From: Thermoplasmata archaeon
GTDB lineage: Archaea > Thermoplasmatota > Thermoplasmata > Thermoplasmatales > Thermoplasmataceae
Assembly: GCA_021797555.1 (NCBI GenBank)
Contig: JAJZZM010000012.1
Location: 5,775-69,774, forward strand
DNA length: 64,000 nucleotides
Reading direction: 5' to 3'
Positions 16,218-22,122 of the stretch are shown here, one piece after another; the first letter of the stretch is position 1, and every line of letters begins with the position of its first letter. Position numbers and translations under genes: made by a program. Under the pieces are notes generated by a model. That model saw nothing but the letters and a program-made list of their open reading frames with translations. It did no database searches and was not told where the DNA came from.

Positions 16218-17342
16218 ATGCATGATGTGATTATGTATATTGAATTTAATGATGATGGCATGAAAATACCGGATAACCTTACAGTGGGATATATAGAGGG
16301 TGAGGGTATAGGCCATGAAATAACAGCGGAGATGATTAAGGTAATAAATTCATCAATAGAACTTGCATATTCAGGCGATAAATCTATAGAATGGAAAAAA
16401 ATTTTAATAGGAAGGGATGCGTATGAAAGATATAATAAATATATACCTGATGAATCAATAGAAGAAATAAGAAAATGTGCAGTAACAATGAAATCCACAT
16501 TAAACCTGCTCCCTGATAAAAATGATATAAATACATTATTAAGAAAAAAATTAGGATTATATGCAAATATAAGAATAATAAAGTATTTGCCGGGAATAAA
16601 CGTAAACATTAAAAGCTTTGATAAAATAAATATAACAATAATAAGAGATTCCATAAATGGAAATTATTCATTTTATCATTCAATGGACAATACAAAGGAT
16701 TTAATCGCCTATATATCAGAAAATTATGATATAAACATAAATGAGGATTCCGAAATAACTATGATAACGCAGAGCAAATTTAGAACAAAAAAAATTATTA
16801 AGAAAATTATAGATTTTTATAAAATTAACAGGAATAGAAAAATTACAGTAGTTTACAGTGATTTAAACCCTGAATTCCTGGACTGGTGTGAGGAGGAATT
16901 AAAAAAAGTTAGGGATGTCCCATATGAATCTTTGAAATTTAATGACTTTATTAAAAGGCTTATAAATAATCCGGAGGATTTTGATCTTGTATTTCTTGAT
17001 AATATAATAAATAGGACTGTTATAAATTATATTATAAATATAATAAATGTTGAATACGGATACAGCATTGGCGATCAGTGCATACTTTTTGAGGCAATAC
17101 AGAGTTCATCACCCGATGAGGCAGGGTATGATATTGCCGATCCATTGCCATTTATTTTATCAGGGTCATCAATGCTTAGATATGTGGGATGGAATGAGGC
17201 ATCCAGGATCATAGAAAATGCAGTACAGCAGGCTTTTATGGATAATAAAATGCCTAAAAATTACATAAATATAGAAAAAGCAGAGCCGTTAAAATGTTCG
17301 CAATTTGCTGATGAAGTAATAAAGAGAATGAAAAAACAATAA
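16218..17342 (+). CDS. Divergent isocitrate dehydrogenase-like protein
   Basis: YIEGEGIGHEI N-terminus and GDQCILFEAIQSSSPDEAGYDIADPLPFILSGSSMLRYVGW C-terminus align to Icd; core catalytic motifs degenerate. Confidence 0.75.
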   Translation: MHDVIMYIEFNDDGMKIPDNLTVGYIEGEGIGHEITAEMIKVINSSIELAYSGDKSIEWKKILIGRDAYERYNKYIPDESIEEIRKCAVTMKSTLNLLPDKNDINTLLRKKLGLYANIRIIKYLPGINVNIKSFDKINITIIRDSINGNYSFYHSMDNTKDLIAYISENYDININEDSEITMITQSKFRTKKIIKKIIDFYKINRNRKITVVYSDLNPEFLDWCEEELKKVRDVPYESLKFNDFIKRLINNPEDFDLVFLDNIINRTVINYIINIINVEYGYSIGDQCILFEAIQSSSPDEAGYDIADPLPFILSGSSMLRYVGWNEASRIIENAVQQAFMDNKMPKNYINIEKAEPLKCSQFADEVIKRMKKQ

Positions 17343-17791
17343 AAATTAATCAATAAATAAATGTTGCCTTATATGTACATATTAATATTGGATGTTGATA
17401 CCATGTAACCAGTACATTATCGCCTGTATTGTATAATTATGCTAAAAAAGCTGTAAAATCATAAAATATCCAATATATGAAAGAACCGTGTATAAGAATA
17501 TGCGAAACAGTACTCATGAATGTTTCAGTTATTATACTGCGATTTTTGATTCAGTGATAAATATATGAAATGTCGGAATACCGCAAAAATTGCATAATAT
17601 TGCTAGGTATGGTTGATGGAATAATAAAAGGCAGTTACGCTATATGATGAAATAGGAAAAATGCCATTAAGGTAAATACCAAAAAATAAAATATCCTACT
17701 TTGACAAGGATACATATAGGTGTGAGTGCAGTAATATAAAATAAATATCATGTTGTACCAATAATGTTATGACATATAGAATATAAATATT

Positions 17792-19462
17792 TTAGTTTTT
17801 AATATTTATTATAACTATACCTGCATAACCATGACTATAAAACATGATTTCCCAGGTTCCGGCATTTTTTGATAGCAAATTTAGTGTAAATGGCCTGCCT
17901 GAGTTTATCGTTACCGGTGATCCAAAAATATAATGGCTATTTGTTATATTTAAAGAGCCTGAATTTGCATAAACATATGTATACATATTATTCGCTATTG
18001 AAATTATTTTCATTACCATTGGTGTATTACTACTATTTACATAGGAAACTGACAAGTTAAATGGTGTGTTTACTGTTTCGTTTATAATATACGGGTTATT
18101 ATTATTGAATGTTATTGAAGATGTTACGTTTACATAATAAATATTTATATATTCACTATATTTTTTTTCACCGGTATTTACGGTAAGGTCGTAAGTAATT
18201 TTACCAGAATAATTACTGTTAGTTATTATTTCCATGATATATATAGTTTCATTTTTAAGCCTGTGATCCGAGTTTATCTCTAATTTTCCACGATTCATTG
18301 AGAATACCGGTTCAATATTATTCCCATTATTACGAACTGTGACGTTAAATGTTACGTTGTGTGGTTCTGCTGTGTTTACAATATAACAGTTGTTGTTTAA
18401 TGAAATATTCTCATTGCCGTTAACCGGATGCACGGGTAATGGCACAAAACCGAGTAAAATAATTACAAAAACAAATATCCCAAGATATTTTATTCCCTTT
18501 GATTTTATAATATTATTCAACGGTAATGGCCCATTTAAACCTATTAATAGAATTATTATTGCTAAAATTATAAAATAAATGTATACAAAACTCATAATTA
18601 ATAATATTAATACTGATAAATATGAGAAATATTTGAATTTATTTTTCAGTACGCCTGAAAAAACAAGTCCACCGTCCAAAAAACCCAGTGGCAGAGCATT
18701 TATTGATGTTATAACAAGGCCTGCATAACCTGCAAGCTCTAGTGGGTCTGGCAATAATGTTGCAGGGAACACATGATTTATTAATATAATATATAGAACC
18801 GGAAAGTTTAACCTGATTAATGGTGAATTTATAGCTGGATTGTATATTGTATTTAATGGCGTTATAGAGGCACCGACAACTATAAAAATAAGTGAGGCTA
18901 TAAATCCAAAAAATATCGAATAACTCCCAACCATTATCATTGATTTTTTTGTTTTAAACTGGTTTTTGTTTGAATTTATCATACCTAATGTACCCAAGCC
19001 AGGTGATGGTATAAAAATGGGAAAATAATATTTCATATGGTTTCTTTTTAATGCTATATATTTCCCATATTCACGCAAAAACATTATTGATATTAATGGT
19101 ATGAAAAATAAAACAATACCAAAAAATAAATTTTTGAAGAAATTATGTGAATAATAGTAAAATGAATAATATTGATATCCTGTGTAAACCATTGCGATAA
19201 TGGTAAGTGCAAACAAAAATACTTTAATCCCAATTTTTTCTTTTGATATACTGTAATTGTTTATTGCTATTATCCGGTTATCAGGGTAATCATCTGTAAA
19301 TGCTGTTACACCGATTAAATTTAAATTATCTACAAGCAATGAAAATGATTTTTCATCGCTTAAATTATCAACGTGGAATATGATTGAATATTCTGTTTTT
19401 TCCTCCTTCGTGATTTTATAATATTTTTTTATAATATTTTCTATTTCACCCGAATTTATCAT
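17792..19462 (-). CDS. M50/site-2-protease-like membrane protein with degenerate HExxH, plus extracytoplasmic C-terminal domain
   Basis: LREYGKYIALKR replaces HExGHyxAxxr; NALPLGFLDGG motif retained; multiple TMs; long Asn-rich beta-type C-terminus. Confidence 0.75.
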   Translation of the reverse strand: MINSGEIENIIKKYYKITKEEKTEYSIIFHVDNLSDEKSFSLLVDNLNLIGVTAFTDDYPDNRIIAINNYSISKEKIGIKVFLFALTIIAMVYTGYQYYSFYYYSHNFFKNLFFGIVLFFIPLISIMFLREYGKYIALKRNHMKYYFPIFIPSPGLGTLGMINSNKNQFKTKKSMIMVGSYSIFFGFIASLIFIVVGASITPLNTIYNPAINSPLIRLNFPVLYIILINHVFPATLLPDPLELAGYAGLVITSINALPLGFLDGGLVFSGVLKNKFKYFSYLSVLILLIMSFVYIYFIILAIIILLIGLNGPLPLNNIIKSKGIKYLGIFVFVIILLGFVPLPVHPVNGNENISLNNNCYIVNTAEPHNVTFNVTVRNNGNNIEPVFSMNRGKLEINSDHRLKNETIYIMEIITNSNYSGKITYDLTVNTGEKKYSEYINIYYVNVTSSITFNNNNPYIINETVNTPFNLSVSYVNSSNTPMVMKIISIANNMYTYVYANSGSLNITNSHYIFGSPVTINSGRPFTLNLLSKNAGTWEIMFYSHGYAGIVIINIKN

Positions 19463-22122
19463 ATCCTTACATTTACTAAAATCTCCTTTATTAAGTTTTC
19501 ACTTATTTTTGTTTCCGAGATAGCGGAATACATTTTACTATTATTTATTTTTTCATGCAGTTTTAAATTTTTATTTAATTCATTAATTATACTTTTTAAT
19601 CCCTTAATCCCAATAATTATTATTTCGTTATTGTTTATAATTAAGGATGTTTTATTTATTTTGTGCAATCCCTGTATAAGCAGGTTTAATTCCCTTTCAT
19701 CCAGATCTGTATTATATACATTTATATCATTATATTCGGCATTATTGTTTATAATGTATTCAATTTTCTCCTTTAATAGTTTATCAAGTTCCTTTTTGAT
19801 TTCTATGTTATTCTTTAATAAATTATAGGAATAATCATATAGTTTACTTTCATCGACCTTCATGAATTCCTCTTCTTTTGATATAATATTATATAATGAC
19901 TGCGTATAATTTAAGGCAGCCAGACCTGCTGAAAATATTATTCTCTGTATTCCCTCCTGAAGCGTTTCGGCTTTTATTATTTTTATAAAACCTATATGTA
20001 TTGTGCTGTCCAGATGTGTACCGCCACAGCCCTCTGAATCAATATCCTCTACTGTAACAACCCTGATTCTATCTGATAGTGGAAATCCACCCTCAAATAG
20101 CCTGAAACCATAATTTTTTATTGCATCATTCCATTTTATGGATGCAACATCTATTTTTTTATTTTCCTGTATTGCTTTAAAACATAAGTCTTCAATGTTT
20201 TTTATATCGTTTAAGTTTATTTTATTATAATGTGTTATATCTAATCTCGATTCATTTATATCTTTTTTTACACCGCTCTGCCATACATGCTCGCCGAAAT
20301 ATTTTCTTAAAATACCAAGCAGTAAATGTGTTGCCGAATGATGCACCATTAACTGGTATCTTCTAGTATAATCAATAAAACCTTTTATTCTTGCATTTAC
20401 AGGTATATCGCTATCAAGGAAATGCACTATGGCGTTATTATACTTCTGAACGTTTGAAACATTTACCTTTTTGCCATTATAAATAAAATAGCCTAAATCA
20501 CATGGCTGGCCACCACCCTCCGGATAAAATGCAGTCTGGTTCACAATTATTTTTTTATCGCCTGAATATAAAACTATTGCAGTAAATTCTTTTATTTTCG
20601 TATTGTCATAATATAACGGCCTTGTATTTATATCAGGATAATCCTCTTCTTTTTTATTCTTTTTAATAATTTTTTCGTGCTTTGCTATTAATAATTCATT
20701 AAAGTTATCCGGCATTTTTAAGGTTTTTCCCGTTATATCATTATATATATCAGATATTAAATCCTCATTCAGTCCATCCGATTCGTACAATTTTATTATA
20801 TCATCCATTTTTAATTCATTGTTTTTTATATATTTTTTTACTTTATTATAAGCATTTTTATTTATTGTATCATATTTCTCCTTTTCTATTGATATTATAT
20901 TGTTTATAAAATTGATATCAAAATTTTTTATAATTTGATTAAGGGTTTTATATTGATATTCTAATAGATAATTTAAATCGTATTTGAATTTTATTTCATC
21001 AATAAATTTAAAGCACCTTCTTATTAATGTTCTTGCAAGGTAACCCACCTTCACATTTGATGGTATTACATAATCGGAAAACATTAGTAATAATGTTTTT
21101 GTATGATCCGCCAATGAATAAACATCCCTTATGCTTTTAAGGCTGTTAAAGAAATCATTGCTTATGCTATAGTTATTTTCATCCATGAATTCTTTTAATT
21201 TTCCCATCAATTTATCCTCACTGTAAGGGTCTATTAACGCAGCATATTCTGAAATTTTCTGCAGTAATTGATCATCTATTTTTTTTGCTTCAGAATTATT
21301 TAAAATAAAATTTATTGTATTATTAAATATTGATTCGTATATCGTTGGTGTTGCATTTGATAGCCATACCAGCCTTTCCAAGCCGTACCCGGTGTCAACA
21401 ATTTTTAATGGCATGCGTGAATATTTTGTATTTTCTATAACTATTGAACCATTATCATCTTCCTTTAAATCCATAAAAACTAATGTTGCCACTTCAAGGC
21501 CACGGACAAAAACTTCAACTGCGTTGCCTGCATTCCCACCTCCGAACCATGGTTTTTCCTTATATGTTATTAAATATGGGTTAATTTTTAATTTTTCCGT
21601 TAAAAATCTAAATGAATATTTTATTGTTTCATTTTTCCAGTAAATATATTTATTTTCATAATTGAATGAATCGTGGCATAGCATTTCAAATGATGTTGAA
21701 TGCCTTCCAGTTTTGCCCACAAGATCAAGGTCCAACATTCTTATGCTTGGCTGTGACATTACAATAGGATTTCCTGGTGGAGGTACCCTGCCTGAGGTAA
21801 CCTGTGGCTGGAAGTCATATATTGATGCATTTACTAACAGTACATCATTTCTCCATCTCGGGACAACAGGGTATGGTTCTAAAAATTTATGTTTTAATTC
21901 GTCATTTTTAAAAAAATTTATAAACTCATCCCTCATTTCATCTATTGTATATTTTTTATAAACTGGAGAATTACCAATAAATGAGTAACTCTCACATGCA
22001 GGGTCTCCACATGTATTTTTATTCTTATCCAATGTCCAGAAATATGATTTGCATATAATGCACTGCTTTCTTGTAAAATTTAAATCCTTAAAGAAATCTA
22101 TATCAAAAGCCGTATTTTCCAT
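19459..22122 (-). CDS. alaS: Alanyl-tRNA synthetase
   Basis: Archaeal AlaRS; HHSATHLL editing motif, EGCGGTHLDSTIHIGF. Confidence 0.96.
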   Translation of the reverse strand: MENTAFDIDFFKDLNFTRKQCIICKSYFWTLDKNKNTCGDPACESYSFIGNSPVYKKYTIDEMRDEFINFFKNDELKHKFLEPYPVVPRWRNDVLLVNASIYDFQPQVTSGRVPPPGNPIVMSQPSIRMLDLDLVGKTGRHSTSFEMLCHDSFNYENKYIYWKNETIKYSFRFLTEKLKINPYLITYKEKPWFGGGNAGNAVEVFVRGLEVATLVFMDLKEDDNGSIVIENTKYSRMPLKIVDTGYGLERLVWLSNATPTIYESIFNNTINFILNNSEAKKIDDQLLQKISEYAALIDPYSEDKLMGKLKEFMDENNYSISNDFFNSLKSIRDVYSLADHTKTLLLMFSDYVIPSNVKVGYLARTLIRRCFKFIDEIKFKYDLNYLLEYQYKTLNQIIKNFDINFINNIISIEKEKYDTINKNAYNKVKKYIKNNELKMDDIIKLYESDGLNEDLISDIYNDITGKTLKMPDNFNELLIAKHEKIIKKNKKEEDYPDINTRPLYYDNTKIKEFTAIVLYSGDKKIIVNQTAFYPEGGGQPCDLGYFIYNGKKVNVSNVQKYNNAIVHFLDSDIPVNARIKGFIDYTRRYQLMVHHSATHLLLGILRKYFGEHVWQSGVKKDINESRLDITHYNKINLNDIKNIEDLCFKAIQENKKIDVASIKWNDAIKNYGFRLFEGGFPLSDRIRVVTVEDIDSEGCGGTHLDSTIHIGFIKIIKAETLQEGIQRIIFSAGLAALNYTQSLYNIISKEEEFMKVDESKLYDYSYNLLKNNIEIKKELDKLLKEKIEYIINNNAEYNDINVYNTDLDERELNLLIQGLHKINKTSLIINNNEIIIIGIKGLKSIINELNKNLKLHEKINNSKMYSAISETKISENLIKEILVNVRI

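Follow-up and report, generated by a model that had tools for sequence, protein, structure and literature searches.

The only reported pseudoenzyme homologous to the site-2 protease (S2P) family is EGY3, which was found only in plants (PMC9355673). In the TldD/TldE system an inactive paralogue lacking zinc ligands is required for the activity of its partner, and the two proteins are active in vitro only together (PMC5810440). The S2P SpoIVFB is controlled through inhibition by the membrane regulatory proteins BofA and SpoIVFA (PMC9042235). Among the open-access papers that we searched, none describes an archaeal pseudo-S2P. Here we analyze a gene of a Thermoplasmata archaeon (family Thermoplasmataceae, acid-loving archaea that include Ferroplasma and Thermoplasma), located at positions 17792-19462 (minus strand) of a 64,000-nucleotide stretch of contig JAJZZM010000012.1 (this whole stretch is referred to below as the window), which encodes a predicted S2P pseudoprotease. 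In our reading, to which we assign a probability of about one half, it is a family-wide selected S2P (M50) pseudoprotease derived from an ancestral long protease, and serves as a non-catalytic substrate-recruiting or gating subunit, or a regulator, of a second, short S2P, with charged residues replacing zinc.

The open reading frame (ORF) starts with ATG, encodes 556 amino acids (aa) and contains zero internal stops. Its parts and its conserved neighbour are the following (coordinates are those of the window):

17792..19462, minus strand: site-2 pseudoprotease, whole ORF, 556 aa; defined by the ORF and by orthologues across the family
19238..19462, minus strand: N-terminal alpha/beta domain, residues 1-75, common to active relatives; AlphaFold2 model (beta/alpha elements 4-68) and alignment
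18407..19237, minus strand: membrane core of S2P/M50 type, residues 76-352; Pfam M50 match at 133-276 and helices in the model
19061..19075, minus strand: former zinc site, R130-E-Y-G-K134, where HExxH is expected; [RK]-E-x-x-[KR] in 69/69 long copies
19028..19030, minus strand: Y145, which all pseudoproteases share (69/69) and for which every active relative has Ala or Val
18680..18682, minus strand: F261, mostly F/Y in the family, in place of the near-invariant Gln of GQLDGGH
18668..18679, minus strand: LDGG, whose D263 corresponds to the third zinc ligand of active S2Ps; Asp kept in 69/69
17795..18406, minus strand: predicted extracytoplasmic ectodomain, beta only, immunoglobulin (Ig)-like, residues 353-556; Foldseek, sequons and homology to sister-family ectodomains
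19459..22122, minus strand: alaS, immediately upstream, conserved neighbour, 4-nt overlap (ATGA)

The alaS gene ends with ...ATA TGA, and the ATG of the pseudoprotease gene lies within the shared ATGA. The first-pass annotation of this DNA, made from the sequence alone, had described, without giving the strand, an uninterrupted ORF overlapping alaS, in which R-E-Y-G-K replaces HExxH but the LDG motif is retained; all of this was borne out, the former motif lying at residues 130-134 and D263 within NALPLGFLDGG (residues 255-265).

A match was found in 61/61 of the searched family genomes, and all those that are at least 90% complete carry both a long copy (about 550-610 aa) and a short copy (about 350-380 aa), so that the active and the inactive paralogue co-occur as strictly as expected of a TldD/E-like pair. 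The short copy has HExxH and lacks the ectodomain (ORFs of 359-414 codons). Where the flanking sequence is long enough, the long copy lies beside alaS on the same strand at essentially all loci. The genus is Ferroplasma, and orthologues of the long copy include those of Ferroplasma acidarmanus Fer1, Acidiplasma aeolicum, Thermoplasma sp. and Thermogymnomonas acidicola; the short copy was near alaS in none of 20 loci. An intact S2P paralogue, for which the first-pass annotation had proposed to look, is present in the genome.

To follow the fate of the catalytic site we compared 69 distinct long copies, i.e. those of the fetched loci in which the site is sequenced, from approximately 19 genera of the family (L085, in which the site is masked by N, was left out). 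Position 130 is occupied by R (67 copies) or K (2) and position 134 by K (39) or R (30), while E131, Y145 and D263 are found in all 69, the last always as D263-G264; the same positions in 97 active relatives hold H (130), H (134), E (131), A/V (145) and D (263). The HExxH of active M50/S2P enzymes is consequently absent from every long copy, and the DG motif with the third-ligand Asp is present in every one. Because the homologues at the alaS locus lack HExxH throughout the family (0/69 intact), a strain-specific mutation, which the first-pass annotation had named as the observation that would overturn its claim, is rejected. A low-quality long-copy sequence of Thermogymnomonas (L084) is frameshifted.

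In a non-redundant set of 50 sequences, the only columns of the membrane core (277 columns) with a charge conserved in at least 97% were 130 (+), 131 (−), 134 (+) and 263 (−), and E131 and D263 are the only fixed carboxylates of the core. The retention of these two acids may reflect simple inheritance; the basic residues at 130 and 134 are new and fixed. Of the active-site companions, the pseudoproteases have largely lost Q261, H266 and the HPP motif at 311 (H266 and H311 are near-invariant in active copies); they keep P148, P152, G157 and G160 in the stretch that follows the pseudo-active helix.

The two retained acids would agree with a long copy that is still an active protease, with zinc ligands supplied elsewhere or with a different chemistry at the site. 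This is very improbable, since H266 and H311 are lost and both ligand histidines have become basic residues, and alternative ligands (the second way in which the first-pass annotation expected that it could be wrong) are rejected, as the core contains no conserved His or Cys column; H345, conserved at 80%, lies in the segment past the last helices. Judged from these alignments, the long copy almost certainly no longer cuts, yet is clearly still used, and its catalytic site has been remodelled under constraint and has not decayed. It fits the definition of a pseudoprotease, with catalytic residues lost, fold and selection retained, and an absence of proteolysis that is predicted.

The persistence of selection was examined, as the first-pass annotation had advised, by the ratio of nonsynonymous to synonymous substitution rates (dN/dS). 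Within Ferroplasma, pairwise values of the pseudoprotease were 0.12-0.23 (0.06-0.19 in the core and 0.11-0.33 in the ectodomain; the core lower than the ectodomain in 5/6 pairs), and those of the short copy were 0.02-0.06 (pairs with unsaturated dS). Purifying selection acts on both copies, more weakly on the pseudoprotease. A decaying gene en route to loss, to which the longer branches of the pseudoprotease (stem 1.35, vs 0.69 for the short copy) might point, is refuted by retention across the family: the gene is intact in all family genomes that are at least 90% complete, in 19 genera, with the above dN/dS and a new fixed signature. Family-wide loss of the motif, the intact paralogue and purifying selection together argue in favour of the first-pass suggestion of a pseudoprotease selected for a non-proteolytic role.

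The similarity of the pseudoprotease to M50 proteins is weak and degenerate, but real. Its match to Pfam PF02163 (21.6 bits, E 1.5e-4) stays under the gathering score of 27.2, as compared with 75-84 bits for intact relatives; the profile was matched by 18/18 scanned homologues, and the tree described below groups the protein with the S2Ps of the order (support 100/99). By fold and ancestry it thus belongs to M50/S2P, and the recognisable M50 scaffold of the first-pass annotation is upheld. No match of either the long or the short S2P was obtained with NCBIfam. The AlphaFold2 model based on an alignment of 102 sequences (predicted local distance difference test, pLDDT, 90.4), which superseded a model from 18 sequences (pLDDT 71.6), has an alpha/beta domain at the N-terminus and then a helical core resembling that of S2Ps, in which a short beta hairpin follows the pseudo-active helix; from residue 352 onward it consists of beta structure only.

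The origin of the two copies is indicated by the sister families of the order (f2, f3, f5 and f6), which have a single gene of 552-587 codons with HExxH and GQLDGGH. This gene immediately follows alaS, and the bounds of the two ORFs overlap. Since these alaS-linked HExxH proteins bear the ectodomain, the pseudoprotease is, on the evidence of position and architecture, the heir of an active protease. The first-pass annotation, sound as to the pseudoprotease itself, had missed that its sister-family counterpart is still an intact HExxH protease. The ancestral gene of the order (alaS-linked, with N-domain, HExxH core and ectodomain) can accordingly be traced to two descendants in the family: (i) an alaS-linked one, which kept the full architecture and lost both zinc histidines, and (ii) an unlinked one, which kept the catalytic motif and lost the ectodomain. 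Catalysis and ectodomain have therefore come to lie on two separate genes.

The phylogeny (IQ-TREE; 75 sequences, 260 columns, catalytic columns removed) placed both copies inside the order clade (100/99), with supports of 100/100 for the pseudoproteases, 100/99 for the short copies and 90/89 for the two together. Acquisition of the short copy from outside the order is not supported by this placement. At the class level, most genomes of family f11 (e.g. G121 and G133) have no such S2P, while genome G226 encodes a short HExxH protein of 364 aa (L194) that has no ectodomain and falls outside the order clade. Another class-level S2P match (G168:C70:19572-20762) lies in an unusually long open frame of 1146 aa.

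The first-pass description of the C-terminus as long, beta-rich and extracytoplasmic agrees with the model and with the distribution of N-x-S/T sequons, which are enriched in this domain 2.3-fold over shuffled sequence (2.9 times in the sister families), with no enrichment outside it. The enrichment of sequons in the C-terminal domain alone fits an extracytoplasmic location and supports possible glycosylation. The best Foldseek matches were tandem Ig-like domains (E about 1e-7 to 1e-6) with low TM-scores, so that the predicted Ig-like assignment refers to the fold class only; in a search with the full chain, such Ig domains at low TM-score dominated and the top 50 contained no match of the core. 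Comparison of profiles with hhalign (E-values are those of single comparisons) aligned the ectodomain with those of the active sister-family proteins over 199 columns, collinear along the full length (99.2%, E 2.5e-18; reversed control 1.3%), and with class-level relatives at 97.7%. Because a homologous ectodomain is present in the active sister-family S2Ps, its gain after the loss of catalysis is rejected.

With its fast evolution, constant length of about 200 aa, abundance of sequons and Ig-like character, the ectodomain could be regarded as a structural or receptor module of the cell surface, for which the membrane core is merely an anchor. This explanation is improbable, because a mere anchor would not need 100% conservation of E131, Y145, D263 and a basic residue (R/K) in place of each histidine, and because dN/dS of the core is below that of the ectodomain in most pairs.

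We favour a role of the long copy linked to the short S2P. The complementary losses in co-occurring paralogues suggest a division of labour formerly united in one protein, in which the short copy would cut and the long copy would handle substrates, as a recruiting or gating subunit or a regulator, by analogy with TldE and TldD. R130 and K134 may take over from zinc in neutralising E131 and D263, forming a buried R/K-E-D salt-bridge cluster of predicted geometry, and Y145 and F/Y261 may fill the cleft; the fold would thereby be kept, and the cleft closed or converted into a binding surface. The evolutionary rate of the pseudoprotease core correlates with that of the short copy (partial r = 0.40, with alaS, another M50 protein and a MiaB-like protein removed), and the control values for the core were −0.01 with the other M50 and −0.07 with the MiaB-like protein.

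Several observations weigh against this reading. The long and short genes are unlinked. The rate of the short copy also correlates with that of the unrelated M50 protein (0.48), and the correlation within the pair, although consistent with it, is for this reason weak evidence. Duplication exactly in the family stem is favoured by the tree, but the approximately unbiased (AU) test keeps trees in which the pseudoproteases or the short copies separate earlier (p 0.32-0.40); the duplication could therefore predate the family, with losses elsewhere. The tree has long branches, which make this timing tentative; the order-level placement is firm.

The main rival is a stand-alone pseudoprotease, comparable to iRhoms or EGY3, whose old cleft and ectodomain bind transmembrane clients and which chaperones, retains or protects them outside the active S2P complex. 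The retained membrane fold, with its P148, P152, G157 and G160 segment, is compatible with such a function; the stabilisation of chloroplast proteins by EGY3 involves no proteolysis (PMC9355673, PMC10978774), and iRhoms provide an established non-catalytic example (PMC3149277). We nevertheless consider it rather unlikely, since the two copies strictly co-occur and have undergone complementary losses (the ectodomain in one, the catalytic site in the other), which points to a task in common. The stronger form of the favoured reading, a subunit of the short S2P, is put forward tentatively: in Thermoplasmataceae a one-chain intramembrane protease may have become an obligate two-chain enzyme, composed of a short catalytic S2P and an ectodomain-bearing pseudo-S2P that selects or gates substrates and in which a fixed, buried tetrad of salt bridges takes the functional place of zinc.

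Genome G000 encodes two more M50 proteins (L266 and L268), of 515 aa (HEMFH) and 215 aa (HEMAH), and genome G035 has two different long pseudoprotease copies (L028, L059) besides the short one, due to paralogy or contamination. In G001 (F. acidarmanus-like) the short S2P gene is split (L272/L273), codons 14-185 lying at a contig end and codons 154-366 about 1.24 Mb away; each piece adjoins an insertion sequence with two ORFs (94 and 322 aa). Either true disruption or misassembly may account for the split, and the pseudoprotease of this genome is intact. In about half of the family loci (L175, L156-L174; assessed by eye) the short copy lies beside ORFs reading like nurA-herA-mre11-rad50; no hint of a client was seen in the short-copy neighbourhoods. 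Within the window, an AT-rich gap of 449 bp (17343-17791), with no listed ORF of at least 60 aa, separates the pseudoprotease gene from a convergent gene (16218-17342).

The protein would represent an archaeal, family-wide S2P pseudoprotease, earlier reports being limited to plants (EGY3). As the same locus in sister families still holds the active ancestor-type, and a catalytic counterpart is present in the same cell, it offers a natural experiment on (i) the separate roles of ectodomain and catalytic site in an intramembrane protease, and (ii) the dismantling of a buried zinc site with the fold kept, the histidines becoming basic and both acids being retained.

Compared with the archaeal S2P of M50B type (M. 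jannaschii MJ0392, PDB 3b4r), the pseudoprotease shares the core family by profile, the match being weak (E 0.015, profile positions 256-303), but it has lost HExxH and has in addition an N-terminal domain and an ectodomain. The likeness to iRhoms, retained and catalytically dead relatives of an intramembrane protease, is one of concept only, since fold and protease class are unrelated; clients are known for iRhoms. BofA and SpoIVFA are likewise membrane proteins that regulate an S2P, but the candidate regulator described here is itself an S2P paralogue. TldD/TldE similarly combine an active HExxxH subunit with an inactive paralogue; they are, however, soluble proteins of another family, and a heterodimer of the long and short copies is hypothesised only. 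The closest parallel by description, not by sequence, is EGY3 of plant thylakoids, an S2P homologue without zinc motif that is kept beside active paralogues; in contrast to this chloroplast protein, the archaeal pseudoprotease possesses an ectodomain of ~200 aa, linkage to alaS and an active counterpart devoid of the ectodomain.
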